IMG/VR virus record: IMGVR_UViG_3300037427_000838
Coordinates: 1-64,000 of that record
DNA: 64,000 bases
Source: a virus
Reading direction: 5' to 3' (one strand)
The position numbers and the translations under genes were made by a program. Of the stretch, positions 7,963-62,958 are shown piece after piece. Numbering within the stretch: the stretch's first letter is position 1; every line of letters starts with the position of its first letter. The notes below the pieces were generated by a model. It was not told the origin of the DNA. It ran no database searches and saw only the letters and a list, made by a program, of their open reading frames with translations.

Positions 7963-10695
7963 ATGAAGTTTAAAGAATTTTTATTACAAGAAGGTTTATA
8001 TGACCCAGGTATATTTAAAGCTTTCTTTATGGCAGGAGGACCTGGTAGTGGTAAATCATTTATCGCTAGTAATACTTTTGCAGGTTCTGGATTAAAATTT
8101 GTAAATTCAGACCAAGTATTTGAAAGAGGTTTAAAGAAGGCAAATCTTTCAGATAAAATGCCTGACCAAGAAAAATATTTTAGAGATATTATAAGAAATA
8201 ATGCCAAAGGTACAACAAAAAGACAATTAGATACTTATGTAACTGGTAGATTAGGTTTAGTTATTGACGCAACTGGAAGAGATTATGGAAGAATAAGTGC
8301 AGAATATAATCAACTACACTCATTAGGTTATGATTGTTATATGATATTTGTTAACACAACATTACCTGTTGCGTTAGAAAGAAATCAAATTAGAAGTAGA
8401 ACTATACCAGAATATATTGTTAAATCATCTTGGGAAAAAGTACAATCTAATATAGGTAAGTTTCAAAGATTATTTGGTCAATCAAATTTTATTGTAGTAG
8501 ATAACAATAGGTCAGATAAAGAACTAGTGTCACAAACTTTACAAAACTGTGACAGATTAGTTAGACGATATATGAGGCAGCCAATTAAAAGTTATCTTGC
8601 AAAAACTTGGATGACAAAAGAAAAAATGTACAGAAACAAATTAAACGAAAGTATTATAGACGCTCCTAGAAATACATATGCACCTGGAGTTTTTGATGAC
8701 TATGAAACTAAAACACCTAGAATTAAACCTAGTGTTAGAGAAATAGTTGACAATCAACTTAAAGAATTTGGTAAAGAATATCCAGTTTTAAAAGTTAGTT
8801 TAGTAGGTTCTATACTTACAAAGAGATATAGAAAGGACGCAGATTTAGATTTTAATGTACTGTTTGATGTACCTGTAGATAAACAAGAAGAAGAAAGATT
8901 AAGATTATCTCATAAGTATCTATCTGCTAAAAGTCCAGAAAAGATTAATGGTAAATTAATACCTGATACACAACACCCTATTAACTATTACATCATTACT
9001 GATCCTATAACTCATCAAGACCAAGAGGATAAAGCAGACGCAGTATTTGATTATAGAGGTAATGTATTTACTAAAAGACCAGCAGACTATACGTTTGATA
9101 TGAAATTATATATGTCAGCATATCAAAGAAAGGTACAAGAGATAGATGTAGTTAAAGGAGAATTAAAAAGAGATATTATAGACTATGATGAATTAAAAGA
9201 TTTACAACCAGATGATATTTTAAACTTACAAGAAAAGATTAATGAGAAGTTAGAAGAGATTGAACAATCTATAAAAGATATTGTTGATATTGGAGATGAT
9301 GTATTAACTGCTAGAAGAGCTGCGTTTGATTCTGATATGACACCAGAACAAATTAAAACGTTTAGTATTAAAAATAGATTACCTAAAAATGTAGTCTATA
9401 AGTTATTAGAGAAATATCATTACTTAAAATTCTATAAGAAATGTAAAGAGATATTAGATGATAATAAAGTTACAGACGCTGAGATAGATAGTTTAAAATC
9501 TGAAGCAGTTGCTGATAAGTCTATTGCAATTACATTTGGAAGATTTAATCCACCTACAATAGGTCACGAAAAACTTATTAATAAAGTTGTAAGAGCAGAT
9601 AGAAATTATAAAATCTATATCAGTAGGTCAGAAGATAGTAAAAAGAATCCATTATCTGCTAGAGAAAAATTATCTTTTATGAAAAAGATGTTTCCACAAT
9701 ATGCTAGAAACATTGAAATCAATACAACAAATATGATTTTAGATTTAGCTACTATGTTATATAACAAAGGACATAATATTTTAAAATTTGTTGTAGGTAG
9801 TGATAGAGTAAGAGAGTTTGATACTATACTTAAAAAGTATAACGACCAGAAAAATAGACACGGATACTATAACTTTAAAACAATAGATGTTATATCTGCT
9901 GGAGAGCGTGATCCAGACGCTGAAGGCGCTTCAGGTATGAGTGCGAGTAAGATGAGGGATGCTGCTCAAAAAGGTGATGTGGCGTCATTTAAGAGAGGAC
10001 TACCATCTCAATTTAGAGATGTTGATGGACTGTTTAAAGCGGTCAGAAAAGGTATGGGTATAAGAGAAGACTATAAACCAGATATTTCAAAACCTGTTAT
10101 GACATTAGGACAGTTTGAACAGAAACAAGTTAGAGACCTATACGTTAGGGAGATGATATTCAATATCGGAGACCAGGTCAAGTATCTTAAAGAAGATAAA
10201 CAAGGTAAAGTAGTACGAAGAGGTACGAACTATGTTGTATTAGAAGATACAAATAATAATTTACACAAATGTTGGATATGGGATTGTATTCCAGTTGCCG
10301 CTGATAAAGAACCAATGTTAAGAGAGTACAACCTAGATATTGATTATGGATTTGAAGCAGTTGAAACAATACCAGTACCAAAACCATACTCACAAATTAA
10401 AGATAGTTATGAAATAGGTGCTGATTATGCTAATCATTGTAAGCAAATGACACCAGGAGAGAAAGAGGACGCACCTCCTGTTGACTCAAAAGACCGTGGA
10501 AAACCTACTGATACATACATATCACGACCAGGTAAGGCTACGGATGCTAAAGTTGGTGAGGATAAATTAACTAAAAATGAAGTAAAAGAATGGGCAACTT
10601 CAGATTCAGTAATAGATAAATATAAGGAACGTTATAAAGAAGAGTGGAAAGCGAAACTAAACGAAGTAGTCGCAAAGATGATTGAGAAACTTTAG
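7963..10695 (+). CDS. P-loop kinase / nucleotidyltransferase / NMNAT-like fusion protein
   Basis: 910 residues with three recognisable catalytic modules. (1) P-loop kinase, GGPGSGKS at about 25-32, like polynucleotide or zeta-type kinases. (2) Pol-beta-type nucleotidyltransferase, GS at 282-283 with DADLDF (Asp 294/296). (3) Cytidylyltransferase/NMNAT-like module near 522-670, with FGRFNPPTIGH (HxGH-like) and SGMSASKMRD (ISTxxR-like). A small beta domain (FNIGDQVKYL) and a charged tail follow. Cyanophage relatives are often labelled cytitidyltransferase. Position among late genes suggests packaging in the virion. Substrates are unknown. Confidence 0.8.
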   Translation: MKFKEFLLQEGLYDPGIFKAFFMAGGPGSGKSFIASNTFAGSGLKFVNSDQVFERGLKKANLSDKMPDQEKYFRDIIRNNAKGTTKRQLDTYVTGRLGLVIDATGRDYGRISAEYNQLHSLGYDCYMIFVNTTLPVALERNQIRSRTIPEYIVKSSWEKVQSNIGKFQRLFGQSNFIVVDNNRSDKELVSQTLQNCDRLVRRYMRQPIKSYLAKTWMTKEKMYRNKLNESIIDAPRNTYAPGVFDDYETKTPRIKPSVREIVDNQLKEFGKEYPVLKVSLVGSILTKRYRKDADLDFNVLFDVPVDKQEEERLRLSHKYLSAKSPEKINGKLIPDTQHPINYYIITDPITHQDQEDKADAVFDYRGNVFTKRPADYTFDMKLYMSAYQRKVQEIDVVKGELKRDIIDYDELKDLQPDDILNLQEKINEKLEEIEQSIKDIVDIGDDVLTARRAAFDSDMTPEQIKTFSIKNRLPKNVVYKLLEKYHYLKFYKKCKEILDDNKVTDAEIDSLKSEAVADKSIAITFGRFNPPTIGHEKLINKVVRADRNYKIYISRSEDSKKNPLSAREKLSFMKKMFPQYARNIEINTTNMILDLATMLYNKGHNILKFVVGSDRVREFDTILKKYNDQKNRHGYYNFKTIDVISAGERDPDAEGASGMSASKMRDAAQKGDVASFKRGLPSQFRDVDGLFKAVRKGMGIREDYKPDISKPVMTLGQFEQKQVRDLYVREMIFNIGDQVKYLKEDKQGKVVRRGTNYVVLEDTNNNLHKCWIWDCIPVAADKEPMLREYNLDIDYGFEAVETIPVPKPYSQIKDSYEIGADYANHCKQMTPGEKEDAPPVDSKDRGKPTDTYISRPGKATDAKVGEDKLTKNEVKEWATSDSVIDKYKERYKEEWKAKLNEVVAKMIEKL

Positions 10696-10703
10696 AGAGA
10701 GAA

Positions 10704-11126
10704 ATGGCAACTAAATTCAAAGATTACGTACACAACCTATACATTGCTGAAAGCTCGGCTATGGTTTTAAAAGGGGTTGACGATTACCTTAAAATTGCTA
10801 GGGAAAAAATTAAAAGACACCCACAATTTGCTAATTTATATAGAGACCAAAGACGTGATGTAGCTACTAGTATAGGTGGCAAGTACATTAAAATTTGGGA
10901 TACTGAACGAGGACAAAGAAGAGCTATACACGCTTTTGTAGATAAAATTACAGGAGATGTTTTAAAGGCGGCTGGTGTTAATGCTCCAGCAAAAGGTGCC
11001 AGAGGAAATGTTTTAGACAAAAAGTATATGGACTCATTAAACCGTGTATTTGATACACACGGTGGACATTTATACAGTAGACATAGTTTATCATATAATT
11101 TTAAAAGAGATAATAGATTCAAATAA
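10704..11126 (+). CDS. conserved late hypothetical protein, 140 aa
   Basis: Starts eight bases after the preceding stop with a GAGAGAG ribosome-binding stretch. Basic protein without signal or membrane segments; central helical part followed by a Gly/Arg/His-rich C-terminus. Probably virion-associated by position; no motif recognised. Confidence 0.7.
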   Translation: MATKFKDYVHNLYIAESSAMVLKGVDDYLKIAREKIKRHPQFANLYRDQRRDVATSIGGKYIKIWDTERGQRRAIHAFVDKITGDVLKAAGVNAPAKGARGNVLDKKYMDSLNRVFDTHGGHLYSRHSLSYNFKRDNRFK

Positions 11127-12574: not shown

Positions 12575-14065
12575 ATGACATATTTAAAACAAAAACCAGG
12601 TAGTGTTGAAGAAGTAATTGCTAAACAGCAATCACAATATCAAGACCCTAATTACAAAGCAAAATTTGACGAAGCATTAAAAAACTCTATGGGTGGAATT
12701 GGTTCAATGACACCTAAAGAAAAGTCAGAATTTTTTAATAAGTTAGACACAGTTAAAAAAGAAGACGCAAAAAAAGCTCAGAAGCAAAACGTTGATAGTA
12801 AAAGAGAATTAAAAAAAGAAGAATGGAAACCTTCTAATGGAAAACACGCTGATGAAACATTAATGAAAGACTTTATTGACAAAGGCGGAAAAGTAGAAAA
12901 GATACCTGAAGGTAAAACTGCTTACATAGGTAACAAAATTAAACCACATCTAGCAAACGAAAGAAATTTAGAACGTCAAAAACAAATGACAGAAGAAACT
13001 ATTTCTGAAAGAGGTGGTGCCAATACATCTTCAAAACAAGGTAGTTTTGCTAAAAGTAGAAAACCAAAATATAGATTTGGATATAGAGTTGCAGAAAAAC
13101 AACCTAAAGGTGATGATATAGAAGAATCATTTTCTCAACAACAAATCAAACAAGCATACGGTATATTAAACGACCCTAGATACAAAGCAGGTAATTATTC
13201 AGGTGCAGTTGCAGCTATTGAAAAACTTGCAAAAGGATTATCAAAACATCCAGATGTTGCTAACGCATTAAAAAGAGCAAATGAATCAGTAGACCACGAT
13301 AGTGCTTTTGCTATTTCAGGTGTAGAAACACAAAGACCTACAGAAGATATGCAAGAAACTATTGACGCAGGCGAAGTATCTAAAATGAAAGACAAGAAAA
13401 AAGAAGTTGATTTTAAAACTGCTAACGTATCTACTACAGAAGATAAAAAAGATCCAAAAAAAGAAGTTATTGGTAATGAAAAACCAGAAACAAATTTAGA
13501 AAATACTATTAGAAATATTTGGAATAAAGCAGCTAATGAAACAACAGAAAGAGGAGACTCTGTACTGTTACCTACAAGAAATGAAAGTAAAATTCCACCT
13601 ATTGAAAAAGATAATAAACCAGGTGTTAAAATTGCAAAGATAAGAGCGACAAGAGATAAAGAAGATGGACAATCTGATGGTGCAAAAGACCCTACAGCAA
13701 TGGAGAAACAAATTTTAACTTTGCAAGGTCAAGTAAATGTTTTAAAAGCAAAATTAGAAAATGAAAAAGGTAAAGTAATTAAACCTGTTGCAGATAAAGA
13801 AACAGGTCAAGTTCCTTTAACAGTTGGAATTGCAAACAAACTTTTACGAGATAAAGCAGAAAAAGAAGCTGATAAAAAAGAAATTAAAAAAGAAGCAGTC
13901 AGTCCTTACAAATTAAAATATGAAACTTTGAGAGCAAGACTTAAAGAAAAAGCTGAAAAAGAAAAACTTGCTAAGAAAAAAGATGAACCTACCAAGGGTA
14001 GAACAATGACTGGAAATCCTGCTTCAAAAGTAAATACAGATCCAGAGATAAACTATAATACCTAG
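12575..14065 (+). CDS. lysine-rich late protein, probable virion or scaffold component
   Basis: 496 residues, extremely rich in Lys, Glu, Asp and Gln, with long predicted helical or disordered stretches (two KEKAEKE-type runs near the end). No enzymatic motif. Its own TATAAATA promoter and its position support a structural or assembly role. The start ATG has no Shine-Dalgarno sequence in front of it. Not recognised beyond similarity in style to cyanophage late proteins. Confidence 0.65.
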   Translation: MTYLKQKPGSVEEVIAKQQSQYQDPNYKAKFDEALKNSMGGIGSMTPKEKSEFFNKLDTVKKEDAKKAQKQNVDSKRELKKEEWKPSNGKHADETLMKDFIDKGGKVEKIPEGKTAYIGNKIKPHLANERNLERQKQMTEETISERGGANTSSKQGSFAKSRKPKYRFGYRVAEKQPKGDDIEESFSQQQIKQAYGILNDPRYKAGNYSGAVAAIEKLAKGLSKHPDVANALKRANESVDHDSAFAISGVETQRPTEDMQETIDAGEVSKMKDKKKEVDFKTANVSTTEDKKDPKKEVIGNEKPETNLENTIRNIWNKAANETTERGDSVLLPTRNESKIPPIEKDNKPGVKIAKIRATRDKEDGQSDGAKDPTAMEKQILTLQGQVNVLKAKLENEKGKVIKPVADKETGQVPLTVGIANKLLRDKAEKEADKKEIKKEAVSPYKLKYETLRARLKEKAEKEKLAKKKDEPTKGRTMTGNPASKVNTDPEINYNT

Positions 14066-14079
14066 GAGGCAATTAGATT

Positions 14080-14568
14080 ATGCCTCTTCCTAAACTCTAT
14101 TGTGATATGGATGGTGTCTTGGCAGACTTTAAAAAAGGTGCTGAGAAAGCAACTGGCGTCCCTATCAGTAAATGGATGAGCCTCACAAAACAAGACAAGT
14201 GGAACCCAATTATGAATGATAAAACTTTTTGGGAAAAACTACCGTGGATGTCAGATGGTAAAACATTATGGAACTATATCAAAAAGCATTCACCAGATAT
14301 TCTATCAGCATATACAGATAGAGACCCAAATTGTAAACCTGGTAAAAGTAAATGGTGTAGAAGTCAATTAGGTATAAGTGGTGCAAGAGTTAATCTTGTA
14401 AAGAGAAGTCAAAAACAAAACTATGCTCAAACAGGATACAGAAGTCCTGCTGTATTAATTGATGATTATAAACCTAATACGGATCAATTTACAAGACGAG
14501 GTGGTATTGGTATCTTTCATAGAAATACATCAAATACTATCCGAGAACTAAAAAAGCTAGGTTTCTAG
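14080..14568 (+). CDS. 5'(3')-deoxyribonucleotidase-like HAD phosphatase
   Basis: 162 residues. YCDMDGVLADF (about 7-17) is HAD motif I with the nucleophile and acid/base aspartates; VLIDDYKPN near residue 127 is the motif IV metal-binding pair. Size and motif order fit the NT5C-type nucleotidases that dephosphorylate dNMPs. A good GGAGG site lies 11 bases before the ATG. Could recycle host nucleotides or modify pools; a second HAD protein is encoded at 36.4 kb. Confidence 0.8.
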   Translation: MPLPKLYCDMDGVLADFKKGAEKATGVPISKWMSLTKQDKWNPIMNDKTFWEKLPWMSDGKTLWNYIKKHSPDILSAYTDRDPNCKPGKSKWCRSQLGISGARVNLVKRSQKQNYAQTGYRSPAVLIDDYKPNTDQFTRRGGIGIFHRNTSNTIRELKKLGF

Positions 14569-14581
14569 CACACCTTCCCAT

Positions 14582-14589
14582 TATAAATA
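14582..14589 (+). promoter_or_regulatory. T4-type late promoter
   Basis: Exact TATAAATA, 55 bases before ATG 14645, in a true intergenic gap. An AAAGGAGAG ribosome-binding site follows. Confidence 0.8.
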
Positions 14590-14644
14590 TACACATATAT
14601 TAAGAATTGAGTACTTTAACATAAAATTTAAAGGAGAGAATAAT

Positions 14645-14935
14645 ATGTCAAGTCATACAAATAAAGACGAAGCAGCTGGAGCACCATTATGGGCAACAGC
14701 AGCAATCAGAAAAGAATGGTCTAGTGCTAACCGTACTGACCTTTTTAATGACGCAACTGCTGACAATTTCATCACAGGTGTTACTATTGGTTTGTTTAAT
14801 TACAAAGATAGTGAAGTATCAGATGGAAAAGTTGCTCACGCAGGTTGGAACCTAAAAACAACTGGTTCTGGTGGCAGAGCAGGTCGTGTATCACACGAAA
14901 CATTAGTCGTATTGACTAATTCAGCTGACGCTTAA
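14645..14935 (+). CDS. small late virion-type protein, 96 aa
   Basis: Starts MSSHTNKDEAAGAPLWA, neutral and rich in Gly, Ala, Thr, Ser. It stands alone between its own late promoter with strong ribosome-binding site and a hairpin terminator, the arrangement expected for an abundant structural protein (head decoration or similar). No family assigned. Confidence 0.75.
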   Translation: MSSHTNKDEAAGAPLWATAAIRKEWSSANRTDLFNDATADNFITGVTIGLFNYKDSEVSDGKVAHAGWNLKTTGSGGRAGRVSHETLVVLTNSADA

Positions 14936-18476: not shown

Positions 18477-18953
18477 ATGTTTGGCACAATGAAAATGGTA
18501 ATGGTTGTAATAATGATAGGCGGACTTGCTGGAGCAGGTATGTATGTTATGAAATTACGATCCGATAATGCCATTTTAAAAGCCAATCAAATTAAACTTG
18601 AAGAAGCGGTCAGCTCTCAAAAGGAGCTGATTGCTAAACAGCAAGAAGACTTTAAAGAAATTTTAAAAGCAAATAAAAAATTTAATGAGTTAGTGAACGC
18701 TCTTAAAAAAGATATAGATGATTTAGATAATAGATTTAACAAAGGTGGAAGAGATTTTGGTAAACTTGCAATAGAAAAAACAGAAGCAATTGAAAGAATA
18801 GTTAATGGCGCAAGTGATAAAGCAATCAGATGTGTTGAGATAGCAGGTGGGTCACCACTTACAGAAGAAGAAATCAACGCAACAAAAAAATCAGAAATTA
18901 ATAGAGAGTGTCCGTCAATAGCGAACCCAAATTATGTACCGTATAATAATTAG
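18477..18953 (+). CDS. putative inner-membrane spanin (Rz-like)
   Basis: 158 residues: N-terminal membrane anchor (about 5-25), long coiled coil (27-120), C-terminal globular tail with one cysteine near 121 and one near 146. The next gene, a lipoprotein, starts inside its 3' end in another frame, as in Rz/Rz1 pairs. I infer an i-spanin that would disrupt the outer membrane at lysis. Confidence 0.55.
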   Translation: MFGTMKMVMVVIMIGGLAGAGMYVMKLRSDNAILKANQIKLEEAVSSQKELIAKQQEDFKEILKANKKFNELVNALKKDIDDLDNRFNKGGRDFGKLAIEKTEAIERIVNGASDKAIRCVEIAGGSPLTEEEINATKKSEINRECPSIANPNYVPYNN

Positions 18954-19308
18954 TATCATTGCTGTTTTAATACTTACTGGTTGTTCAATCGGTGAGAAAC
19001 GACTTAAAATATTTAAGTTAGAAGAACCTAGGCAGGAGTTAGACTTACAGAAACCTACAATGCCTGAACTAGAAAAGTTGAGATGGATTATTATTACTTC
19101 TGACAATGCAGAAGAAGTATTCCAAAAGATGGAAGCAGAAGGACTTGATCCAGTATTATTTGGATTAAGTGATAAAGACTTCCAATTAATTGCAAAAAAC
19201 TTTGCTCAAATAAGAGCACATTTAAAACATACAAATGATTTACTTGAACAATATAAAGAATATTATGAACCAAGTGATGAGAAAAAAGAAGAAAAGGAGA
19301 GTGAATAA
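18934..19308 (+). CDS. lipoprotein, putative outer-membrane spanin partner
   Basis: 124 residues with a lipoprotein signal ending in LILTGC (Cys about 17). The mature part is helical and highly charged, not proline-rich as in Rz1. The start overlaps the putative i-spanin gene by 20 bases. Either the outer-membrane half of the spanin pair or an unrelated lipoprotein. Confidence 0.55.
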   Translation: MYRIIISIIAVLILTGCSIGEKRLKIFKLEEPRQELDLQKPTMPELEKLRWIIITSDNAEEVFQKMEAEGLDPVLFGLSDKDFQLIAKNFAQIRAHLKHTNDLLEQYKEYYEPSDEKKEEKESE

Positions 19309-19523: not shown

Positions 19524-20720
19524 ATGAAAATATTATGTATATTATATGATGACCCAAAAGACGGAATGCCAAAATCATATCCAGTCAAAGACTTACCAAA
19601 ATTAGAAAAGTATCCAGATGGTATGACATTACCATCTCCTAAAGGAAGAGATTTCAACGCAGGAGAATTATTAGGTTGTGTTTCTGGTGAATTAGGATTA
19701 AGAAAATTTTTAGAAGACGCAGGACATACTTTAGTAGTTACGTCTGATAAAGACGCTGATGGTTGTACAGCAGATAAAGAATTAGTTGACGCAGATGTAG
19801 TCATTTCACAACCATTTTGGCCTTACTATCTAACAAGAAAAAGAATAGAGAGTGCTCCAAAATTAAAGATGGCAATTACAGCAGGAATTGGTTCTGACCA
19901 CGTAGATTTACAAGCGGCTATGGATCATAAAGTTGATGTAGTTGAAGTAACTTATTGTAATAGTAGAAGTGTTGCGGAACATATTGTTATGATGATACTA
20001 GCACTAGTTAGAGATTATCACAATCAATATAAAATAGTTAACGAAGGTGGTTGGCATATCGCAGACGCAGTTAAACGTTCTTATGATGTAGAAGGTATGC
20101 ATATAGGAACAATTGCCGCTGGTAGAATTGGTTATGATATGTTAAGAAAAATGAAACCATTTGATGTACACTTACATTACTTTGATAGACATAGATTGCC
20201 AGAAGAAAAAGAAAAAGAATTAGGTTTAATCTATCACGAATCAGTAGAAGATATGGTTAAAGTTTGTGATGTAATTAATATAAGTTGTCCTTTACATCCT
20301 GAAACTGAACATATGTTTAATGATGATTTAATTAGTAAGTGTAAAAAAGGTGCTTACATAATTAATACAGCAAGAGGAAAGATTTGTGATAAGGATGCTA
20401 TTGCAAGAGCAGTAGAGTCAGGACAATTAAGTGGCTACGCAGGTGATGTATGGTTTCCACAACCAGCACCTAACGACCACGTATGGAGAACAATGCCTCA
20501 TCACGGTATGACACCACACACTTCAGGTACTTCACTATCAGCGCAGACTAGATATGCAGATGGTGTAAGAGAAATACTTGAATGCTTTTTTGATGGTTCA
20601 GAAATTAGAAATCAATATCTAATTGTTAAAGATGGAGACCTTGCAGGTATGGGTGCTCACTCTTACTCAAAAGGAACTGCTACTGGTGGTTCAGAAGAGG
20701 CGGCAAAGTTTAGGAAGTAA
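19524..20720 (+). CDS. fdh: NAD-dependent formate dehydrogenase
   Basis: 398 residues, full length for the D-2-hydroxyacid-dehydrogenase-type enzyme (formate + NAD+ to CO2 + NADH). Landmarks recalled from the Pseudomonas enzyme are all in place: QPFWPYY (about 96-102), GIGSDHVDL, Asn146 in EVTYCN, the NAD-binding AAGRIG (198-203), Asp221 favouring NAD+, Arg285 in NTARGK, and His332 in TPHTSGTS. It looks intact and catalytic. Probably an auxiliary metabolic gene giving reducing power from C1 metabolism, which is important in SAR11. It sits outside any recognised replication or virion cluster. Confidence 0.93.
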   Translation: MKILCILYDDPKDGMPKSYPVKDLPKLEKYPDGMTLPSPKGRDFNAGELLGCVSGELGLRKFLEDAGHTLVVTSDKDADGCTADKELVDADVVISQPFWPYYLTRKRIESAPKLKMAITAGIGSDHVDLQAAMDHKVDVVEVTYCNSRSVAEHIVMMILALVRDYHNQYKIVNEGGWHIADAVKRSYDVEGMHIGTIAAGRIGYDMLRKMKPFDVHLHYFDRHRLPEEKEKELGLIYHESVEDMVKVCDVINISCPLHPETEHMFNDDLISKCKKGAYIINTARGKICDKDAIARAVESGQLSGYAGDVWFPQPAPNDHVWRTMPHHGMTPHTSGTSLSAQTRYADGVREILECFFDGSEIRNQYLIVKDGDLAGMGAHSYSKGTATGGSEEAAKFRK

Positions 20721-20721
20721 A

Positions 20722-20886
20722 ATGGACGCAGATATATTATTAATGATAAGTAGATTATGGCCGATTTTTGTAGCATTTATATTATTAATAGTTACTTTAG
20801 CACAAGCACACTATAGAATTAAAGTGTTGGAAGAAAAAGTTAAAGTAGCATTTGAACTTATTAATAAGTTAACAGACAGAAAATGA
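20722..20886 (+). CDS. small membrane protein, 54 aa
   Basis: ATG two bases after the formate dehydrogenase stop. One membrane helix (about 12-30) followed by a short coiled coil (YRIKVLEEKVKVAFELINKL). Unknown. The next micro-gene overlaps its stop (ATGA). Confidence 0.6.
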   Translation: MDADILLMISRLWPIFVAFILLIVTLAQAHYRIKVLEEKVKVAFELINKLTDRK

Positions 20887-20972
20887 AGACAGTATATACC
20901 TTAGCGGGTATTGTCGCAGTATTAGGAATTGTTATAGGTATAAGTGGTTATTTTATATTTCTACTTATTTAA
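20883..20972 (+). CDS. 29-residue membrane peptide
   Basis: Single hydrophobic helix with glycines (VLGIVIGISGYF). Overlaps the preceding gene by four bases, and its last eight bases overlap the end of the minus-strand cyclase gene, tail to tail. Possibly real given several similar peptides here. Confidence 0.4.
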   Translation: MKTVYTLAGIVAVLGIVIGISGYFIFLLI

Positions 20973-22593
20973 TAGAATAACAATTAATCTTTTCTTTTTT
21001 ACCTTTTACGGTACAAATACCTAGTTTATAAAACTTAAAGTCTAAATCTTTTTTAGTATTTTGAGATATTACTATTGTAGTATTGAAATCTTTACTCTTA
21101 CCTTCTAATCTACTTGCCAAATTAACAGCGTCACCAATGACAGAATAATCAAAACGTTGTTCAGACCCCATATTACCTACAAGACACTCGCCAGTATTGA
21201 TACCTATACCAATGTTTAAAGGTGGGTCAAACTCTCTACTCTTATTCATTTTTCTAACTGTTTCTCTCATTTCGTATGCAGATAATACTGCTAGTTTTTT
21301 GTGTTGAGGTGTATCAAGTGGTGCGTTCCAAAATGCCATTATACAATCGCCCATATACTTATCAATAGTACCACCATTTTTTAATATTATACCCGTCATT
21401 GCAGTTAAAAATTTGTTAACATATCGGGTAAGTTTTTCTGGATTACCTTTCATAGATTCCGATATAGGAGTAAAGCCACGTATATCAGAAAATAAAAACG
21501 TCATTTCTTTTCTTTCACCACCAAGTTTTAATAGAGATGGATTCTTTTGTAGTTTCTTAACCATATCAGGAGATAGGTAGTGTTCAAATTGTTTCTTAAT
21601 TTGTAGTCTTAATTTATTTTCTTTTGCATAGTTTTGATACGTTAATTGACCCCATATAATAGAACCTATTACAAGAGGACTAAACCAATCAGTTATGATT
21701 AAGTGTTGTGTCCATAGATAAGAACTTGCAAGTGTTAAATCAAATAAGTATCCACCAAACCATATCGCAGACCATATCACACTACATCTAGGTATAACTA
21801 TGAGAAAGAATAGAGCACCTAATATTATAAATGCTAATTCACTATGTGGTAACCAATAAGGTCTACTAATAAAATTACCTGACAATAAAGTTTCTGTACT
21901 GATTGCCATAATTTCGTGTGTGTTCTTTAAACCATTCGGAGTAGTTACAAACGTTGAACCTTTGAACGTTGTACCTATGAAAACTATTTTACCTTTTACA
22001 GACGACCAATCTTTATCAGTAAAATCTATTCTAGGAATATGGTGTCTGAAATCTATCCAAATAGTATCTTCTGCTGATGTTTTTGCATTGATAACTTTTA
22101 AGATAACATCAGGTATGGATTTATCAAGTGGTAATTTTCTTATAGTACCATCTATATCAACTGGTACAGATACATTACCTATTGCAAGTGCTTTACGTGA
22201 AATACTTTGTAGATTTTTTACTTCATCCGTTTCAGTAAGTATGACTGGATATTTTGAAATCATTTTTAAAAATACTTCATCACCACCTAATCTATCTTTA
22301 TGTGGGAAGACTACTTGAAGAACTACTAGAGCGGCACCATTTTTATATGCGTTAATTATAACACGACCAAGTAAATCTCTTTTCCACGGCCATTGTCCAT
22401 TCTTTTTTAATGCTTTATCTGAAATGTCTATTAGAACTAAACTCCTTGATTCATAATTCTTACCAAATGATTGGTAGAAATCAAAGGTGTTTAGCTTTGC
22501 TGTCTGTAGCAGTACTGGATTTGATAAGTATATTCCTAGCAATATTATCAAAGTTAGATATACAGTCCACGATTTAGCCAATATTTTAATCAT
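20965..22593 (-). CDS. CHASE2-domain adenylate/guanylate cyclase
   Basis: 542 residues, the only convincing minus-strand gene of the window. Membrane helix (about 8-28), a CHASE2 sensor (about 30-245, with the WPWKRDLLGRVI signature) predicted outside the cytoplasmic membrane, three further helices (252-317), then a class III cyclase domain (363-540). Catalytic residues are present: metal ligands Asp370 (FSDIRGF) and Asp416 (KYMGD), and Asn492/Arg496 (DAVNLASRLE); Lys412 suggests ATP as substrate, giving cAMP. No Shine-Dalgarno is visible before the ATG. Cellular CHASE2 cyclases often neighbour FecR-domain genes, as here. Confidence 0.93.
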   Translation of the reverse strand: MIKILAKSWTVYLTLIILLGIYLSNPVLLQTAKLNTFDFYQSFGKNYESRSLVLIDISDKALKKNGQWPWKRDLLGRVIINAYKNGAALVVLQVVFPHKDRLGGDEVFLKMISKYPVILTETDEVKNLQSISRKALAIGNVSVPVDIDGTIRKLPLDKSIPDVILKVINAKTSAEDTIWIDFRHHIPRIDFTDKDWSSVKGKIVFIGTTFKGSTFVTTPNGLKNTHEIMAISTETLLSGNFISRPYWLPHSELAFIILGALFFLIVIPRCSVIWSAIWFGGYLFDLTLASSYLWTQHLIITDWFSPLVIGSIIWGQLTYQNYAKENKLRLQIKKQFEHYLSPDMVKKLQKNPSLLKLGGERKEMTFLFSDIRGFTPISESMKGNPEKLTRYVNKFLTAMTGIILKNGGTIDKYMGDCIMAFWNAPLDTPQHKKLAVLSAYEMRETVRKMNKSREFDPPLNIGIGINTGECLVGNMGSEQRFDYSVIGDAVNLASRLEGKSKDFNTTIVISQNTKKDLDFKFYKLGICTVKGKKEKINCYSIK

Positions 22594-22617
22594 ATACTAT
22601 ATTTAGTACAGATATCT

Positions 22618-22625
22618 TATAAATA
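22618..22625 (+). promoter_or_regulatory. T4-type late promoter for the curli-like operon
   Basis: Exact TATAAATA in the 56-base divergent region between the minus-strand cyclase and csgF. Predicted start near 22631, then GAGAGAGA ribosome-binding stretch and ATG 22650. It implies late expression of the whole curli-like unit. Confidence 0.7.
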
Positions 22626-22649
22626 TATACATCAACGAGAGAGAGAAAA

Positions 22650-23108
22650 ATGAGATTAATTAGTTTTATTTTAGCAGTATTATTGTTCGTTCCTAGTGCC
22701 TACGCAAGTGAATTGGGGTTTAAATTTCATAGTCCATCATTTTCAGGTCAAGGTAAGTCTTCACACTATCTAACGATAGAGAACATTGAAAAGACTAGGA
22801 AAGACGCCATAAAAGCAGCCGAAAAAGCGGCGGCAGATAAAGTAATAGCAGACGCTAAAAATACAGCAATAGCAAAATTCAAAGCAAATGTTGAATCAAG
22901 ATTTTATACAGCACTTGCTAAACAAATTACAGACAACGTTTTTGGTACAGATGGTCTACAACAAGACTCTGGAACATTTACATCACCTATTGGTGGTGAA
23001 GTTGTTGAGTGGACAACACCATCAGGTACAGGTAATGTAGTTGTAACTGTTACAGAATCAGACGGAACTGTAACGACATTTACAATGCCTAAAGAGGATA
23101 ACTCATAA
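22650..23108 (+). CDS. csgF: CsgF-like curli assembly protein
   Basis: 152 residues with a signal peptide (cleavage after about AYA, 19). The mature N-terminus ELGFKFHSPSFSG matches the CsgF segment that inserts into the CsgG channel (aromatic/PSFGG). A lysine/alanine-rich helical part follows, and the C-terminus VVVTVTESDGTVTTFTMP resembles the CsgF terminal strands. In curli systems CsgF sits at the mouth of the CsgG pore and templates fibre nucleation. It starts the late operon and overlaps csgG by one base. Confidence 0.8.
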   Translation: MRLISFILAVLLFVPSAYASELGFKFHSPSFSGQGKSSHYLTIENIEKTRKDAIKAAEKAAADKVIADAKNTAIAKFKANVESRFYTALAKQITDNVFGTDGLQQDSGTFTSPIGGEVVEWTTPSGTGNVVVTVTESDGTVTTFTMPKEDNS

Positions 23109-24277
23109 TGTTTAAATACATAGGAATATTCCTACTTTCTTTAATGTTAGTGGGTTGTGCAGGTAAGCCAAAGTTTGATGTAAGAACTCAAACAGTTGCT
23201 TATAAAGATTTGTCAGTTATATCAGCACCGAAAGGCGATCCTGTTATAATTGCTGTCTATGACTTTTTAGATATGACAGGTCAAAAGAAACCTGGAGGAA
23301 ACTTTGCGTCTATGAGTACAGCAGTAACTCAAGGTTCATATCAGTTGTTGATTAAAGCATTACAAGACGCAGGAGAAGGCAAATGGTTTAGAGTAGTAGA
23401 ACGAGCAAGTTTGCCAAGTTTATTACAAGAAAGAAAATTAATACGTTCTACAAGACAATCAATTAATGGAGAAGGTGCAGAACCATTACCACCATTATTA
23501 TTTGCAGGTGCATATATAACAGGTGGTATTGTAGGATATGATAGTGATATTAAATCAGGTGGTTTAGGTGCTAGAATATTAGGTATTCAAAGCAACAAAC
23601 AATTTAGACAAGATATAGTTACTATTATATTAAGACTAGTTAATGTACAAACTGGTGAAGTAGTTATAACAACTACTGTTGAAAAGACTATTGTTTCAAC
23701 AATGACAGGTGGAGATATATTTAAGTACTTTGATACTGATACAATGTTATTAGAAGTTGAAGCAGGATATGCTAAAAACGAACCAGTAACTTTTGCAGTA
23801 AGAAAAGCAATAGAAAAAGGTGTAGTAGATTTAATTAATCAAGGTGCAGAAAAAGGACTATGGGAGTTTGAACCAATAGTTGAAGTGCCTGAAATTAAAG
23901 ACTACCTAGATGAAACTGGTACAAGTGATATTAAAGTTGATATGGGTGAAGTAAAACCAGAAAAAACATATGAAGATTTTAAGAAAGAAAAGAAAGCTAG
24001 AAAAGAATTAAAGAAAGCACAAAAACTTGAAGTAAAAAATTATAATAAAAAACACGGTACAAAATTTAAAACTTGGGACGAATATCAAGCACATTTAGCA
24101 CACTTAATAGCAATTGAAGCTAAAGAAGTAGAAAAAGAAAACCGTAAGAACGGTATACAAGAGAAAATAACTGAAGAAGAAGAGTGGAACCAAGTAGACA
24201 AAGATACAGAAACAAAGGAGAATGCTGATGAAAAAGATAATGATAGCGATAGTGATTCTTCTGGCGACAACGATTAA
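23108..24277 (+). CDS. csgG: CsgG-like outer-membrane secretion channel lipoprotein
   Basis: 389 residues. Lipoprotein signal MLVGC (Cys17), then a CsgG domain to about residue 255: VIIAVYDFLDMTGQ, the WFRVVERASLPSLLQERKLI stretch and an AGAYITGGIVGYDSD segment, followed by the transmembrane hairpin region (ITGGIVGYDS to VTIILRLVNVQTGEVV). CsgG forms the nonameric curlin export pore. The last 130 residues are a charged, disordered extension not found in standard CsgG of about 270 residues. Partners: CsgF upstream and curlin-like protein downstream; no CsgE or CsgC seen. Confidence 0.92.
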   Translation: MFKYIGIFLLSLMLVGCAGKPKFDVRTQTVAYKDLSVISAPKGDPVIIAVYDFLDMTGQKKPGGNFASMSTAVTQGSYQLLIKALQDAGEGKWFRVVERASLPSLLQERKLIRSTRQSINGEGAEPLPPLLFAGAYITGGIVGYDSDIKSGGLGARILGIQSNKQFRQDIVTIILRLVNVQTGEVVITTTVEKTIVSTMTGGDIFKYFDTDTMLLEVEAGYAKNEPVTFAVRKAIEKGVVDLINQGAEKGLWEFEPIVEVPEIKDYLDETGTSDIKVDMGEVKPEKTYEDFKKEKKARKELKKAQKLEVKNYNKKHGTKFKTWDEYQAHLAHLIAIEAKEVEKENRKNGIQEKITEEEEWNQVDKDTETKENADEKDNDSDSDSSGDND

Positions 24278-25304
24278 AAGTTTCGCAGGTAATTCGGTCT
24301 GGATTCAACAAAATAACCAAGATAGCGACGGATCAGTCTTTATAAAACAAGATGGTACTGGTAATAAAGTAGGTATATCTACTTCAGCACCATTTGTAAT
24401 AGATGGTGAGAACTTAACACTTATTATCAGACAAATAGGTGACAATAATGTAACCTCAATGTCTTCACACCTTGAATTGTTTGGTGAAGATATGACTGTA
24501 GATTTATATATCAAAGGTGACGCTAACGTATTAAGATTAGAAGGTGATACAGATTCAACTGGTCATTGGTATGATTTTGATGTAACTGGCAATTCAAATA
24601 CAATGAGAGTTGATGGTAATGATGATGACAATACTCATAAGACTAATATTGATTTAGATATTGTTGGAGACTCAAATGAGTTTTGGTTAAAAAGTAGAGG
24701 TGATGGTCACTTCATCTATGTTCTTATGTCAGGTGATTCAAACCGAGTACATTTTTATACTCATACAGACTCAGCAGGTTTCAATACAAACTCTAACGTA
24801 TCAATTGGTCCTAACGTTGCTTCACACGGACAGTTTGCAGACACTTCAGGAAGTGAAGGTGCAACACTTGACGCATACATAATAGGAAATTCAAACAGAT
24901 TAGATAGTTCCTCATACGGCACAGGTAACTATCAAGTACACGACATTATAGGTAATTCAAATATTATAGACTTACACGCTTCTCATAGTGGCGACTATGA
25001 TTTAGCTACAATTAAAGGTAACAATAACTATTTAAAAACTGTTATCAATGGCAACAGTAATGTTTTAAGAATACATCAAGAAGGTGGTAGTAATACTGCT
25101 AGAATTTATGTTTATACTTCTGAAGCAGCTGTTAATATGGCACAAACAGGTGGTAGTAATACATCAAACATTACCATATCAGGTGATTCAATTTACGATT
25201 ATACATTAAACTTTACACAAAACGGTTCAGATAATTGTACATATTCATTTAATAGAAACACACAAACAGCAGACGTAACAGCAACAGTAGCTAATGGGTG
25301 TTAA
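24228..25304 (+). CDS. curlin-like repeat protein, secreted
   Basis: 358 residues from ATG 24228 (AAGGAG seven bases upstream; ATG 24222 is too close). Signal peptide ending about SFA. The mature protein is built of irregular 20-30-residue beta repeats with G(N/D)SN turns (about ten copies) and curlin-like I-x-Q-x-G-x-x-N motifs (FIKQDGTGNKV, IIRQIGDNN). This predicts a beta-solenoid or amyloid subunit exported by the neighbouring CsgG/CsgF. It is longer and less regular than CsgA, and has cysteines at its C-terminus. It overlaps csgG by 50 bases. Confidence 0.8.
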   Translation: MKKIMIAIVILLATTIKSFAGNSVWIQQNNQDSDGSVFIKQDGTGNKVGISTSAPFVIDGENLTLIIRQIGDNNVTSMSSHLELFGEDMTVDLYIKGDANVLRLEGDTDSTGHWYDFDVTGNSNTMRVDGNDDDNTHKTNIDLDIVGDSNEFWLKSRGDGHFIYVLMSGDSNRVHFYTHTDSAGFNTNSNVSIGPNVASHGQFADTSGSEGATLDAYIIGNSNRLDSSSYGTGNYQVHDIIGNSNIIDLHASHSGDYDLATIKGNNNYLKTVINGNSNVLRIHQEGGSNTARIYVYTSEAAVNMAQTGGSNTSNITISGDSIYDYTLNFTQNGSDNCTYSFNRNTQTADVTATVANGC

Positions 25305-25439
25305 ATGAAAGCATTTTTAACTTTCATTTTAATATTCGGTGGTATATGTTTAGCAAGTGGTATAATATGTACTATAATATCCTTATACTGGCCAGAAAAA
25401 TGGAAAAGAAAGAAAAAAGAAGTTAAATTTAAAAGATGA
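25305..25439 (+). CDS. small membrane protein, 44 aa
   Basis: Starts directly after the curlin-like gene stop and overlaps the FecR gene (ATGA). One membrane helix (about 4-28) with two cysteines, then a very basic tail (WKRKKKEVKFKR). Unknown; a local partner of the module is possible. Confidence 0.55.
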   Translation: MKAFLTFILIFGGICLASGIICTIISLYWPEKWKRKKKEVKFKR

Positions 25440-27580
25440 AAAAATTATTATTTTTAGTATCGTTTCTAGTACTCTTCTGTACTAGTGTATTTTCTCAAAC
25501 TGTAGGAACAGTTATAGGACAAATGGGTACAACTTGGAATGAAAGAGGTGGTCAAATCCAAAATACTACAATGGGTTATGAGTTGCAAATGTTTGACTTT
25601 CTACAAACTGGTGAAGATGGTGGTATGATATTAAAGTATGCTGATAATACTAAATTTACAATGGGACCAGGTACAGAATTAACTATTGATGAATATTCTT
25701 TTGATACTTCTGTTATACCAATTCAACTTGCAATGAACGTATCAGTTAATGTTGGTACATTTACATACGAATCAGGACAAGTATCTACTTTAGGTGGTGA
25801 AGTTAATATAACTGCTGGTAATGCCACAATTACAGTACAAGGTACTGCTTTTTCAGGAACAGTTGACTCAATGGGTGGGGCAACAATTACTTTACTACCT
25901 GATAGTAATGGTGAAGTAGGACAAGTAACTGTATCTAATGACGCAGGTTCTCAAACAATAACTAACGCTTTCAATTCAGTAACCGTTATATCAAATGATT
26001 TAGCACCAACACCTCCAAAAATAGAAACTAATAAACAAAATATTATTGAGTTAGATAAATTTGAAGAAGAAATAAAAGATGAATCACAAAAGACTTTTGG
26101 TGATGTAGAAAAAAAATCTGAAATGTCTAAAGAAGAAACTAAAGCACAGGAGATGGAAGAGGCAATCATTGCTGAAGAAGCAAATATAGTAGAAGATAAT
26201 AATACAATTGTTGCTACAGACTTATCTGTTGGTGAAACAGACGCAATAATTGAAATGGAATCAGTAGAAGAAAGTAATTTAGTTGAAGTTATAGAAGAAG
26301 TTGATACATCTTATTATGATTCCTGGGAAGAAGATTTAAAAGATTGGGGTTATATAGATGAAGATAATCAGATTTCAGTTTGGGATGCTGAAGGTGAACA
26401 AACTATGGATTGGGATGACGCAAAGAAAATGTATGCAGAAATGGATCAAGCATACTTTGACGCCATTGATTGTTCAGATTGTACTTGGGATACTATTAAT
26501 TGGGATGAGGTAGATTGGGACGCAGTTGATTGGGATGCTTACTATGACGAGTATAATGAATTATTAGAAGCATATGGATTAACTTCTTGGGCAGTTGAAG
26601 AAGAAGAGGTTAACGTAGTTGAAGAAACTAAAGAAGAAACAGAAGCTAGTACAGTTGAAGGATATACTTGGGAAGATTTTGCTTTAGATGATGACTACTA
26701 TAACAATGCAGAATACAAAGCGGCAGGTGGTCCTCCAACATTAACTGTACAAAACTATTGTGAGTACAATGGATACGAAGACTATTGGTGCAACCAAGAC
26801 TATGTTGATTACTTAAATGATTGGTATAAAAATGACTGGACTTTAAAAGTAACTAACGATAGTTGGACTAAAGAATCTAAAAAGATATGGGGTAAATTAT
26901 ATGGTTGGTGTGGTAGTTATCCTAATTATAAAATGTGTGAAAATCAACCTAGACCTTGGAAGATGAAAGACTTAAAAAATATGTATGTAACTGACTGGAG
27001 TTGGTCAGATTGGAGTACATATTGGGACGCAGTATATGATTGGTGGTACACAGGTTATGATTATAACAATGAAGATGACCAAAGTAATTGGGAAGATGAA
27101 TATAATTATGAAGATGATTATGATATAGACGCAGAATTAGAATTGTTATTAGCAAGTTATGATAAAGAAGACTGTTTAAATTATGGATACTATTGGGACA
27201 ATGCCAAGTCTAGTTGTGGTACTGAATGGGTAGACAATAGTGGTTCAGAAACGCAAGTAACTGCTAGTGGTGAAACATTAAACTATTCTACTGGAGATGT
27301 AACTCAAACCTTAACTACAACAGATGGTGTAACAGGTGCGACTTCAAGTGCAACTTCAACAGGAAGAGTATCAACGTTAGACAATGATTTTAATGCTCAA
27401 GCGTCAACTTCTGGTGATTACACAATCATAAATAGATATAACGACAACCATAGAGCTTATATAAAGACTGAAACGAGTAAAGAAGCAGATATACAGATTT
27501 TACAAGATTCAGAAGCTCAACACATTGACGTAGGGAATTCCACTACACAAAATAATATTACAATAATACAAACGGATTAA
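25436..27580 (+). CDS. secreted FecR-domain protein with Trp/Asp-rich middle and curlin-like end
   Basis: 714 residues. Signal peptide (about 1-20), then a FecR domain (about 20-170): DFLQTGEDGGMILKYAD, FTMGPGTELTIDEY and a final VQGTAFSGTV. A long acidic coiled stretch (190-290) and an extraordinary Trp/Asp/Tyr-rich region (about 300-600, many W-D-x-x-D/N-W units, several cysteines) follow. The C-terminus is Ser/Thr-rich and ends with curlin-like strands (DIQILQDSEAQHIDVGNS, then NNITIIQTD). Probably a periplasmic or surface component exported with the curli module; FecR domains often pair with CHASE2 cyclases. Confidence 0.85.
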   Translation: MKKLLFLVSFLVLFCTSVFSQTVGTVIGQMGTTWNERGGQIQNTTMGYELQMFDFLQTGEDGGMILKYADNTKFTMGPGTELTIDEYSFDTSVIPIQLAMNVSVNVGTFTYESGQVSTLGGEVNITAGNATITVQGTAFSGTVDSMGGATITLLPDSNGEVGQVTVSNDAGSQTITNAFNSVTVISNDLAPTPPKIETNKQNIIELDKFEEEIKDESQKTFGDVEKKSEMSKEETKAQEMEEAIIAEEANIVEDNNTIVATDLSVGETDAIIEMESVEESNLVEVIEEVDTSYYDSWEEDLKDWGYIDEDNQISVWDAEGEQTMDWDDAKKMYAEMDQAYFDAIDCSDCTWDTINWDEVDWDAVDWDAYYDEYNELLEAYGLTSWAVEEEEVNVVEETKEETEASTVEGYTWEDFALDDDYYNNAEYKAAGGPPTLTVQNYCEYNGYEDYWCNQDYVDYLNDWYKNDWTLKVTNDSWTKESKKIWGKLYGWCGSYPNYKMCENQPRPWKMKDLKNMYVTDWSWSDWSTYWDAVYDWWYTGYDYNNEDDQSNWEDEYNYEDDYDIDAELELLLASYDKEDCLNYGYYWDNAKSSCGTEWVDNSGSETQVTASGETLNYSTGDVTQTLTTTDGVTGATSSATSTGRVSTLDNDFNAQASTSGDYTIINRYNDNHRAYIKTETSKEADIQILQDSEAQHIDVGNSTTQNNITIIQTD

Positions 27581-27582
27581 AT

Positions 27583-27675
27583 ATGGACTACGGAACTATC
27601 AATTTATTCATAATTTTTGGATTACTAATTTATATGGACTGGTCTATTTACAGATGGATAGATAGAGAATTCTAA
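27583..27675 (+). CDS. 30-residue membrane peptide
   Basis: One hydrophobic helix (INLFIIFGLLIYM) then a Trp/Arg tail. Its stop overlaps the ATG of the next gene (TAATG). Low-level support only from packing. Confidence 0.4.
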   Translation: MDYGTINLFIIFGLLIYMDWSIYRWIDREF

Positions 27676-58644: not shown

Positions 58645-58809
58645 ATGAATACACACTTATACGCTTGCCCTAGATGTGCTGATGTTTTAATTAAAAAAGC
58701 AGAAAAAGCATTAGATAGGTCACAAACAGAATGGTCAAAGAACTTTTGGCACGGAGTATGGCAGAAGTTAAGGGCTAAATATCAACCAGAAAAGGTAACA
58801 TATCATTAA
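58645..58809 (+). CDS. small CxxC protein, 54 aa
   Basis: Chosen start ATG 58645 (MNTHLYACPRCADVL); upstream in-frame ATGs exist and no ribosome-binding site decides. CPRC near residues 8-11 may bind metal. Basic, helical. Not recognised. Confidence 0.45.
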   Translation: MNTHLYACPRCADVLIKKAEKALDRSQTEWSKNFWHGVWQKLRAKYQPEKVTYH

Positions 58810-59003
58810 TGAAACAATTAATAATAGACGCAGTTAAACAACACGCTGAAGGTAATATTGCAAAGTCAAAAGCAAACATACAGGTATTTTTAAATAATCC
58901 TGTTGGTGTTGCAACGCATATGGATTCAGTTGAAACAGTTGTTAAAGAATTAAAAGTCATTGCAGATAATAAAGAAATTATTGAAACTCTAAAGGACATT
59001 TAA
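58809..59003 (+). CDS. conserved small helical protein, 64 aa
   Basis: Begins MKQLIIDAVKQHAEGNI; repeated helical pattern with NPVGVATHMD in the middle. I recall similar short proteins in cyanophages without function. One-base overlap with the previous gene. Confidence 0.65.
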   Translation: MKQLIIDAVKQHAEGNIAKSKANIQVFLNNPVGVATHMDSVETVVKELKVIADNKEIIETLKDI

Positions 59004-62045: not shown

Positions 62046-62453
62046 ATGTACAAGACAATAATATCACTAATTTTTGGAGCATTACTCTTAATGAGTACTG
62101 TTGCTATGGCGGAGCAAACACCAGAAACACCTAATACTATAGAACCATTACAGCCTGAACAAGACCAAATGGCAAAATTATATTGGATGTCAATGCCAGT
62201 TATTTGTGGTAAACAGGAATATGTTGAAGAGTATTTAAAACATCATAAATTTCTAATGGCTAATATGTCAGTTGGAAGAGAGAATGCAAAACCTGAAAAC
62301 CAAATTGTATATTACGTTACCTACTGGATATCAGAAGACTTTTCTCAATCAATAGCAGTAGTAACTAATATGGCAGGTACAGAATCTTGTATGATGTATA
62401 AGTCATTTGATTTACAATGGACTGAACCACCAAGATTAGGGAAAGATTTATAA
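62046..62453 (+). CDS. secreted protein, 135 aa
   Basis: Signal peptide (cut after about AMA, 22) and a soluble domain with two cysteines (about 54 and 117), similar in layout to other exported proteins of the phage. ACGAGAGG upstream. Not recognised. Confidence 0.65.
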   Translation: MYKTIISLIFGALLLMSTVAMAEQTPETPNTIEPLQPEQDQMAKLYWMSMPVICGKQEYVEEYLKHHKFLMANMSVGRENAKPENQIVYYVTYWISEDFSQSIAVVTNMAGTESCMMYKSFDLQWTEPPRLGKDL

Positions 62454-62454
62454 T
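62449..62454 (+). promoter_or_regulatory. possible -10 for the tmRNA precursor
   Basis: TATAAT overlapping the preceding stop codon; start predicted near 62461, just before the acceptor piece. No good -35 at 17 bases, so the assignment is weak. Confidence 0.3.
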
Positions 62455-62460
62455 GAATTT

Positions 62461-62705
62461 GACGTTGAAGAATAGATAATAACTAGTGAGGACGTGGGTG
62501 CGATTCCCACCACCTCCACCAATTCAAAACACATATAATAGTGTGCTTTAAGGGGGTGAGTTAGATTCGACTACTACTAAAACTATTTGGAGTTAAATCG
62601 CTGATAGCGTACTATCAAAACTATAAAAGCAAACGAAAGTTTAGCTCTTGCTGCCTAGTTACTAGGCAAACGGCGTTGTGTAGTACGTGGCAACAGAAAC
62701 TACAC
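62461..62705 (+). ncRNA. ssrA: circularly permuted (two-piece) tmRNA gene
   Basis: Order is reversed relative to one-piece tmRNA. Acceptor piece first: T-arm GTGGG-TGCGATT-CCCAC (62494-62510), acceptor 3' strand CACCTCC (62511-62517), ACCA (62518-62521). A 30-base spacer with a hairpin follows. Coding piece: acceptor 5' strand GGGGGTG (62552-62558, pairs with CACCTCC), TAGATTCGAC (D-loop), a helix-2 strand, pseudoknot at 62599-62616, tag ANESLALAA (62629-62655) with TAG stop in a GCCTAG-TTA-CTAGGC hairpin, and an H-type pseudoknot at 62675-62704. This layout is typical of alphaproteobacteria. It would rescue stalled ribosomes with SmpB. Mature ends are estimates. Confidence 0.9.
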
Positions 62706-62707
62706 AC

Positions 62708-62736
62708 TTTACATTTACTAGAAAATATGTTATAGT
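62708..62736 (+). promoter_or_regulatory. sigma70-like promoter, predicted leaderless
   Basis: TTTACA, 17 bases, TATAGT; predicted start coincides with ATG 62743. Overlaps the end of the tmRNA coding piece. Confidence 0.65.
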
Positions 62737-62742
62737 AACACA

Positions 62743-62958
62743 ATGAACTCAAAAGAATTTTCACTAATTATAGAGGACATAGTAAAGAAGCATAAAGAAC
62801 TATCTTATGTGGATGCTATTGTTAAATATTGTGATGAAAATAATATTGAAATTGAAACTACAGCACGTCTAATTACAAAACAACTCAAAGAAAAAATACA
62901 ACATCAATCAGCACAACTAAACCTGTTAAAAGGTGGTAAACCTGGAATGTTGCCATAA
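62743..62958 (+). CDS. gp33-like late transcription accessory protein (tentative)
   Basis: 71 residues. The pattern MNSKEFSLIIEDIVKKH, SYVDAIVKYCDENNIEIE, LITKQLKEKI and QLNLL resembles short cyanophage proteins annotated as T4 gp33-like co-activators, which bridge late sigma, polymerase and sliding clamp. The TATAAATA promoters in the window require such a factor. Assignment from recalled pattern only. Confidence 0.5.
   Translation: MNSKEFSLIIEDIVKKHKELSYVDAIVKYCDENNIEIETTARLITKQLKEKIQHQSAQLNLLKGGKPGMLP

Follow-up and report, generated by a model that had tools for sequence, protein, structure and literature searches.

A curli-module adenylate cyclase gene relocated once and inverted in a lineage of SAR11-type phages, with a putative late-type promoter of its own

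The cyclase gene and the adjoining curli module

The window analysed here is a stretch of 64,000 nucleotides, in which an adenylate cyclase gene on the minus strand stands back to back with the plus-strand genes csgF, csgG, a curlin-repeat gene and a gene for a FecR-like secreted protein (Table 1). It comprises nearly the whole of a 64,675-base IMG/VR virus record, itself a genome fragment. The source is an ocean phage akin to those that infect Pelagibacter, a SAR11 bacterium; judged by its primase and ribonucleotide reductase genes, which share 76–77% DNA identity with those of the SAR11 phages Mosig and HTVC008M, the record is a pelagimyophage-like fragment.

Table 1. Features of the cyclase and curli region; coordinates refer to the window unless a locus is named.
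Feature	Position	Strand	Basis or remark
54-aa membrane/coiled-coil ORF (sm)	20722..20886	+	marks the site before csgF in tail-type phages
29-aa membrane ORF, convergent with cyclase	20883..20972	+	8-nt tail overlap, 20965–20972
CHASE2–class III adenylate cyclase (AC)	20965..22593	-	542 aa, ATG start; Pfam domains, catalytic residues
Class III cyclase catalytic domain, residues 362–541	20971..21510	-	Pfam PF00211 Guanylate_cyc, 3.7e-24
CHASE2 periplasmic sensor region, residues 15–262	21808..22551	-	Pfam PF05226, 1.3e-27
Divergent intergenic region, 56 bp	22594..22649	.	between AC start and csgF start at 22650
ACTAAATA, late-type variant box, Aeh1-like a/gCTAAATA	22600..22607	-	6 nt before AC start
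TATAAATA, T4-type late promoter box for csgF	22618..22625	+	also upstream of csgF in relatives
csgF	22650..23108	+	Pfam CsgF, 1e-11
csgG	23108..24277	+	Pfam CsgG, 5.5e-49
Curlin-repeat protein	24222..25304	+	Pfam Curlin_rpt, 2e-5
FecR-like secreted protein, 714 aa, curlin-like C-terminal tail	25436..27580	+	phrog_37870, 1e-20
Empty ancestral AC site, 2 nt from FecR stop to next ORF	27581..27582	.	tail types have AC there
30-aa ORF MDYGTINLFII...	27583..27675	+	directly 3′ of AC in tail types L098, L102, L019, L023, L094
NATAAATA-type late box examples	L318:7549, 31119, 49747 (L318–L320 = HTVC008M); window 12562		near-start spacing

Both Pfam matches of the cyclase, to CHASE2 and to Guanylate_cyc, exceed the curated cut-offs, and its nearest solved structures are the adenylate cyclases 6fht, 3r5g (CyaB) and 2w01. 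Hydrophobic segments, read from the sequence, lie on either side of CHASE2 and ahead of the cyclase domain. Class III cyclases are characterized by a base-specifying lysine paired with threonine, aspartate or serine, two metal-binding aspartates, and a transition-state asparagine and arginine. The window protein contains D370, D416, K412, S484, N491 and R495, which we take to be the two metal aspartates, the base-specifying lysine and serine, and the transition-state asparagine and arginine, respectively. By its domains and residues the gene encodes a genuine CHASE2–class III adenylate cyclase, and cAMP production is predicted. The active site is intact in 74 of the 76 cyclases compared, the exceptions being that of phage Melnitz and one incomplete row with gaps. 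The Melnitz cyclase (L003, locus 8935–10986) is the sole complete one of the 76 in which N491 is changed to serine, and aspartate replaces S484; judging from these substitutions it may be altered or inactive.

As originally predicted, the gene lies on the minus strand exactly 56 nt from csgF and overlaps by 8 nt the tail of a convergent ORF; this overlap with the stop end of the cyclase gene is conserved in several relatives. The prediction that it is the only minus-strand gene also held among ORFs of at least 60 aa in the window, where no other minus-strand ORF survived scrutiny. Two such ORFs lie clear of the accepted plus-strand genes, the cyclase and an ORF at 58775–58999, and the latter was rejected because it mirrors a 64-aa plus-strand gene at 58810 (phrog_1811, 3e-20) and its minus-strand reading matches nothing. 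Eight longer minus-strand ORFs that overlap plus-strand genes gave no PHROG match. Since HTVC008M has further minus-strand blocks and the window is a fragment, the uniqueness applies to the window alone. Within it, GC skew falls below zero over the cyclase gene only. A further minus-strand ORF at 62621–62764 was discarded because it overlaps a tmRNA (62407–62749, plus strand) of the permuted, alphaproteobacterial form (Rfam RF04321/RF01849); the Rfam scan of the window returned tRNA and tmRNA only.

In the window the CsgF, CsgG, curlin-repeat and FecR-like genes are contiguous, the content by which a curli (type VIII secretion) module is recognized. A Pfam search at 0.001 returned nothing for the 714-residue FecR-like protein; its gene is homologous to, and syntenic with, the FecR genes of the related phages, including the one annotated as FecR domain protein in Melnitz. 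The series csgF-csgG-curlin-FecR-curlin-AC of HTVC008M and Melnitz ends with the cyclase, the whole set lying on one strand; many uncultivated relatives likewise have the same cyclase last and co-directional, and it occurs in dozens of IMG/VR contigs. The window cyclase is 34% identical to that of the HTVC008M module over 95% of its length. These comparisons place it, as the adenylate cyclase, in the known curli module of pelagiphages, for which the order HK-CsgF-CsgG-CsgA/B-FecR-curlin-AC and a source in Alphaproteobacteria have been published (PMC9599517). The co-directional order with the cyclase last is not found in the window, where the cyclase comes first and diverges; we treated the published order as the usual one and not as a strict criterion.

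The window thus shares with the module of HTVC008M and of HTVC023P-type podophages (PMC9599517, PMC7029224) adjacent csgF, csgG, curlin-repeat, FecR-like and CHASE2-cyclase genes, but its cyclase is divergent at the front, whereas theirs is co-directional and last, and it has one long FecR-like protein with a curlin-like tail in place of FecR and a second curlin. In the podophage module a histidine kinase precedes csgF; the front genes seen in the window, among which no histidine kinase was identified, are the 29-aa and 54-aa ORFs, a formate dehydrogenase and spanins. The curli operon of Melnitz, a phage of OM43 (PMC9004378), resembles the window in its csgF-csgG-curlin-FecR-curlin-AC gene set and differs in having its cyclase at the tail and without the conserved active-site asparagine. 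The formate dehydrogenase is NAD-dependent (19524–20720, plus strand; NF005750, 652 bits against a cut-off of 329) and adjoins the curli module, a neighbourhood common to several relatives; formate dehydrogenase is listed among the unique genes of a deep-water pelagimyophage ecotype (PMC7029224). The spanins form an overlapping, Rz-like pair (18477–19308, plus strand; phrog_739 and phrog_812), which places lysis genes just before the cyclase and curli region.

Relocation of the cyclase from the tail to the front of the module

About 200 IMG/VR loci were fetched and compared; the counts that follow are counts among these contigs and not population frequencies. Two layouts dominate. In the tail type the order is sm-csgF-csgG-curlin-FecR-AC-q-primase-nrdA, and in the divergent type, to which the window belongs, it is sm-[AC reversed]-csgF-csgG-curlin-FecR-q-primase-nrdA. 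Of 101 distinct csgF haplotypes, 59 had both flanks available and so offered complete neighbourhoods; the module cyclase was at the tail in 38 and divergent in 21, and none had it in both places or in neither. The position that the cyclase occupies in tail types is cleanly empty in the window, because the 30-aa ORF that directly follows the cyclase in tail types begins 2 nt after the FecR stop codon. In some divergent phages (L009/L166, L161 and L181) an ORF that comes after the cyclase in tail types (MTQLQKKK, MTLLQKKK-like) has moved along with it. A third layout was seen in L074 (4263–5237, minus strand in csgF orientation), where the cyclase of an HTVC008M-like module lies behind FecR on the opposite strand and is convergent with it.

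In a tree of 52 cyclases rooted on the HTVC008M-like ones, all 28 divergent cyclases formed one clade nested within the tail-type cyclases (UFBoot 93, SH-aLRT 99; recovered in 92% of bootstrap trees), which indicates a single derived event in the direction from tail to front. Together with the gene orders, this shows that the cyclase moved once, from the tail of the module to its front, and was flipped, leaving the module complete and the old site empty. An entire lineage of related phages has retained the divergent arrangement. We found no description of this single-origin arrangement in the text, as distinct from the figures, of the literature examined, the cyclase itself being a known member of the module.

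A single divergent clade was rejected by the csgG tree (AU p 9e-7) and by the FecR tree (p 1e-85), on which five and nine layout changes, respectively, would be needed. The core genes have therefore been swapped between phage types, while cyclase allele and cyclase position stayed linked; the divergent haplotype could have spread by recombination and not strictly by descent. The flip itself is not recent, because the third-position AT skew of the cyclase gene depends on its strand: the values are −0.013 for divergent cyclase genes that oppose their flanks and +0.064 for tail types (p 4e-9, uncorrected for kinship), and +0.054 for the divergent phages whose cyclase follows the flanks, the csg genes being the exceptions there.

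Late-type boxes on both sides of the 56-bp gap

Most short-family phages, divergent and tail-type alike, also have the T4-type box TATAAATA before csgF. It occurs at eight sites in the window, all on the plus strand, six of them within the 3,363 intergenic bases that make up 5% of the sequence. The box before the cyclase, ACTAAATA, resembles the late consensus of phage Aeh1, a/gCTAAATA (PMC2988020). It contains the sole intergenic CTAAATA of the window, and because no intergenic copy exists on the plus strand we called it a variant and rejected CTAAATA as the general late promoter of this phage. All 32 unique divergent cyclase leaders contain the TAAATA core, against 4.0 expected, as do 18 of 20 tail-type leaders, against 2.2 expected. 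Across the divergent leaders the box is kept while the remaining gap sequence diverges and the spacing varies. The tail-type box overlaps the stop codon of FecR, and part of its conservation there could be coding; the Melnitz box has no such overlap and argues otherwise.

The early and middle transcripts of T4 all run in one direction, whereas its late transcripts run in either (PMC2988020), and the annotation of HTVC008M includes a late sigma factor and a late co-factor. Combined with the T4 rule, boxes on both strands suggest that the 56-bp gap is a putative back-to-back late promoter for the cyclase and csgF. The pair agrees with T4-type late promoters (TATAAATA; Aeh1 a/gCTAAATA; PMC2988020, PMC2984593) in its boxes, in their placement before late genes and in the use of both strands; it differs in that the two window boxes stand back to back within 50–60 bp and in that transcription is predicted to start on or beside the AUG. 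A T4-type late promoter has TATAAATA or an accepted variant ahead of a late gene, about one helical turn before the transcription start; the boxes here fit in sequence, strand bias and enrichment, the start positions being predictions. The conserved box in all 32 divergent leaders supports, as we infer, the original prediction that the cyclase is under its own control. The companion suggestion of expression at a different time finds no support in the sequence, where T4-late-type boxes flank both sides of the gap.

In HTVC008M, 18 late boxes of the NATAAATA type have a start codon nearby, and for 9 of these the distance to an open ATG is exactly 5 nt; given the T4 geometry, such transcripts would start at the A of the AUG and so be leaderless late mRNAs. 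A literature search for pelagimyophage transcript maps found none, and a pelagiphage RNA-seq paper (PMC12753301) concerns two other phages and leaves curli and cyclase unmentioned. Some tail-type phages (L017, L025, L026, L109 and L196) have strong hairpins with T runs, resembling terminators, ahead of the late promoter of csgF; no such hairpin was found near the end of the cyclase gene in the window.

A proposed envelope-to-cAMP circuit and its alternatives

SAR11 phages carry curli genes that their hosts are reported to lack, which raises the question of what these genes do. CHASE2 domains face the periplasm, and the phage cyclase may be an inner-membrane receptor whose periplasmic CHASE2 region reads an envelope signal. 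The likeliest signal would come from the FecR-like protein that the module itself secretes, from the state of the CsgG pore, or from both; in the simplest circuit, either could report envelope or curli status to CHASE2, and the cyclase would make cAMP in the infected cell. From its own T4-late-type promoter the cyclase would be fired in the same phase as csgFG-curlin-FecR, and the divergent arrangement would uncouple cyclase dosage from read-through of the operon. As a whole, the explanation that we consider probable is that of a known curli-module cyclase, relocated once and flipped, with its own late-type promoter and acting in an envelope-sensing cAMP circuit.

Related bacterial systems offer parallels. 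In Campylobacterota, genes for CHASE2 cyclases are clustered with genes for outer-membrane proteins that carry a FecR domain (PMC9239204), so that a FecR-domain protein is encoded alongside the cyclase as in the window, and in Sinorhizobium sensing by a CHASE2 cyclase depends on an outer-membrane barrel (PMC13001267). These enzymes, including CyaD1, CyaD2 and CyaK of Sinorhizobium, share with the window protein the combination of CHASE2 and a class III cyclase; the window system differs in being phage-borne and tied to curli genes, with no linked phosphodiesterase or CRP seen. A FecR-like ORF lies within 6 kb in 24 of the 80 closest cellular homologues of the cyclase, a raw count without a control rate. 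A literature search on a Pelagibacter cAMP receptor yielded nothing usable.

As a single-copy, obligate member of the module that was kept through relocation and has its own late-type promoter, the cyclase argues that cAMP signalling is part of the module's job. Natural phage pairs that differ mainly in cyclase position make a direct comparison of regulation possible. It is conceivable, and we put it forward tentatively, that two haplotypes, with the cyclase at the tail or divergent at the head, coexist in ocean pelagimyophages under selection for exactly one module cyclase per genome, because the cyclase and the secreted FecR and curli proteins would form an envelope-to-cAMP circuit that is sensitive to dosage and driven by a back-to-back late promoter.

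An equally tentative alternative is that the flip was neutral: recombination moved the cyclase, its position has no regulatory meaning, and it persists by linkage. The free recombination of the core genes, the existence of the convergent L074 layout behind FecR and the common rearrangement of the hypervariable region (PMC7029224) would all fit. Against neutrality stand the late-type box, invariably present before divergent cyclases though the gap otherwise diverges, and the occurrence of exactly one module cyclase in every complete neighbourhood, where single core crossovers would be expected to yield products with two cyclases or none.

It is rather improbable that the cyclase is timed differently from the late curli operon, in the early or middle phase from a host sigma-70 promoter. 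The gene does have its own promoter region on the opposite strand, and a sigma-70-like match (9/12) lies at 22623–22596 on the minus strand, but that site would initiate inside the cyclase gene. A sigma-70 promoter for the cyclase was rejected, such sites being no commoner than in shuffled sequence (19 against a mean of 23.9). The conserved element before the gene is a late-type box, and transcription against the prevailing flow is a late feature in T4 (PMC2988020).

Independent acquisition, meaning transfer of the cyclase from a bacterium apart from the curli genes and its insertion in minus orientation, was part of the original prediction and is now very unlikely. Besides its unique strand, the gene has, at 1.32 bits per codon, the least typical codon choice of the 21 long window genes compared, the others ranging over 0.94–1.29. 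The strand-dependent skew may explain this slightly unusual codon choice, so that of the compositional argument the oddity stood, but the need for a foreign source did not. Its closest relatives are phage cyclases of the same module, whereas the best cellular ones, mainly from Alphaproteobacteria, are just about 30–43% identical. The proposed synteny and phylogeny comparisons, carried out here, point to relocation within the phage lineage and not to bacterial acquisition: the divergent cyclases are a single derived clade within phage tail-type cyclases, and nothing is left at the old site behind FecR. The original refuting condition, ancestry of the gene to the whole phage group, nearly holds for the curli-bearing phages; a search of Mosig for the cyclase gave no match.

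Least probable of all is a Pycsar-like enzyme that defends against other phages: PADLOC PycC models match the catalytic domain (best 6.6e-28), but this match is to the generic class III domain, effector models (PycTM/PycTIR) match none of the five neighbouring proteins tested, and the enzyme differs in its membrane architecture with CHASE2 and in having curli partners.

One divergent-type locus among the 21, L176, carries a second, distant CHASE2 cyclase (12961–14886, minus strand; 38% identity) that is convergent with FecR, and a relative of this second cyclase is present in L010.
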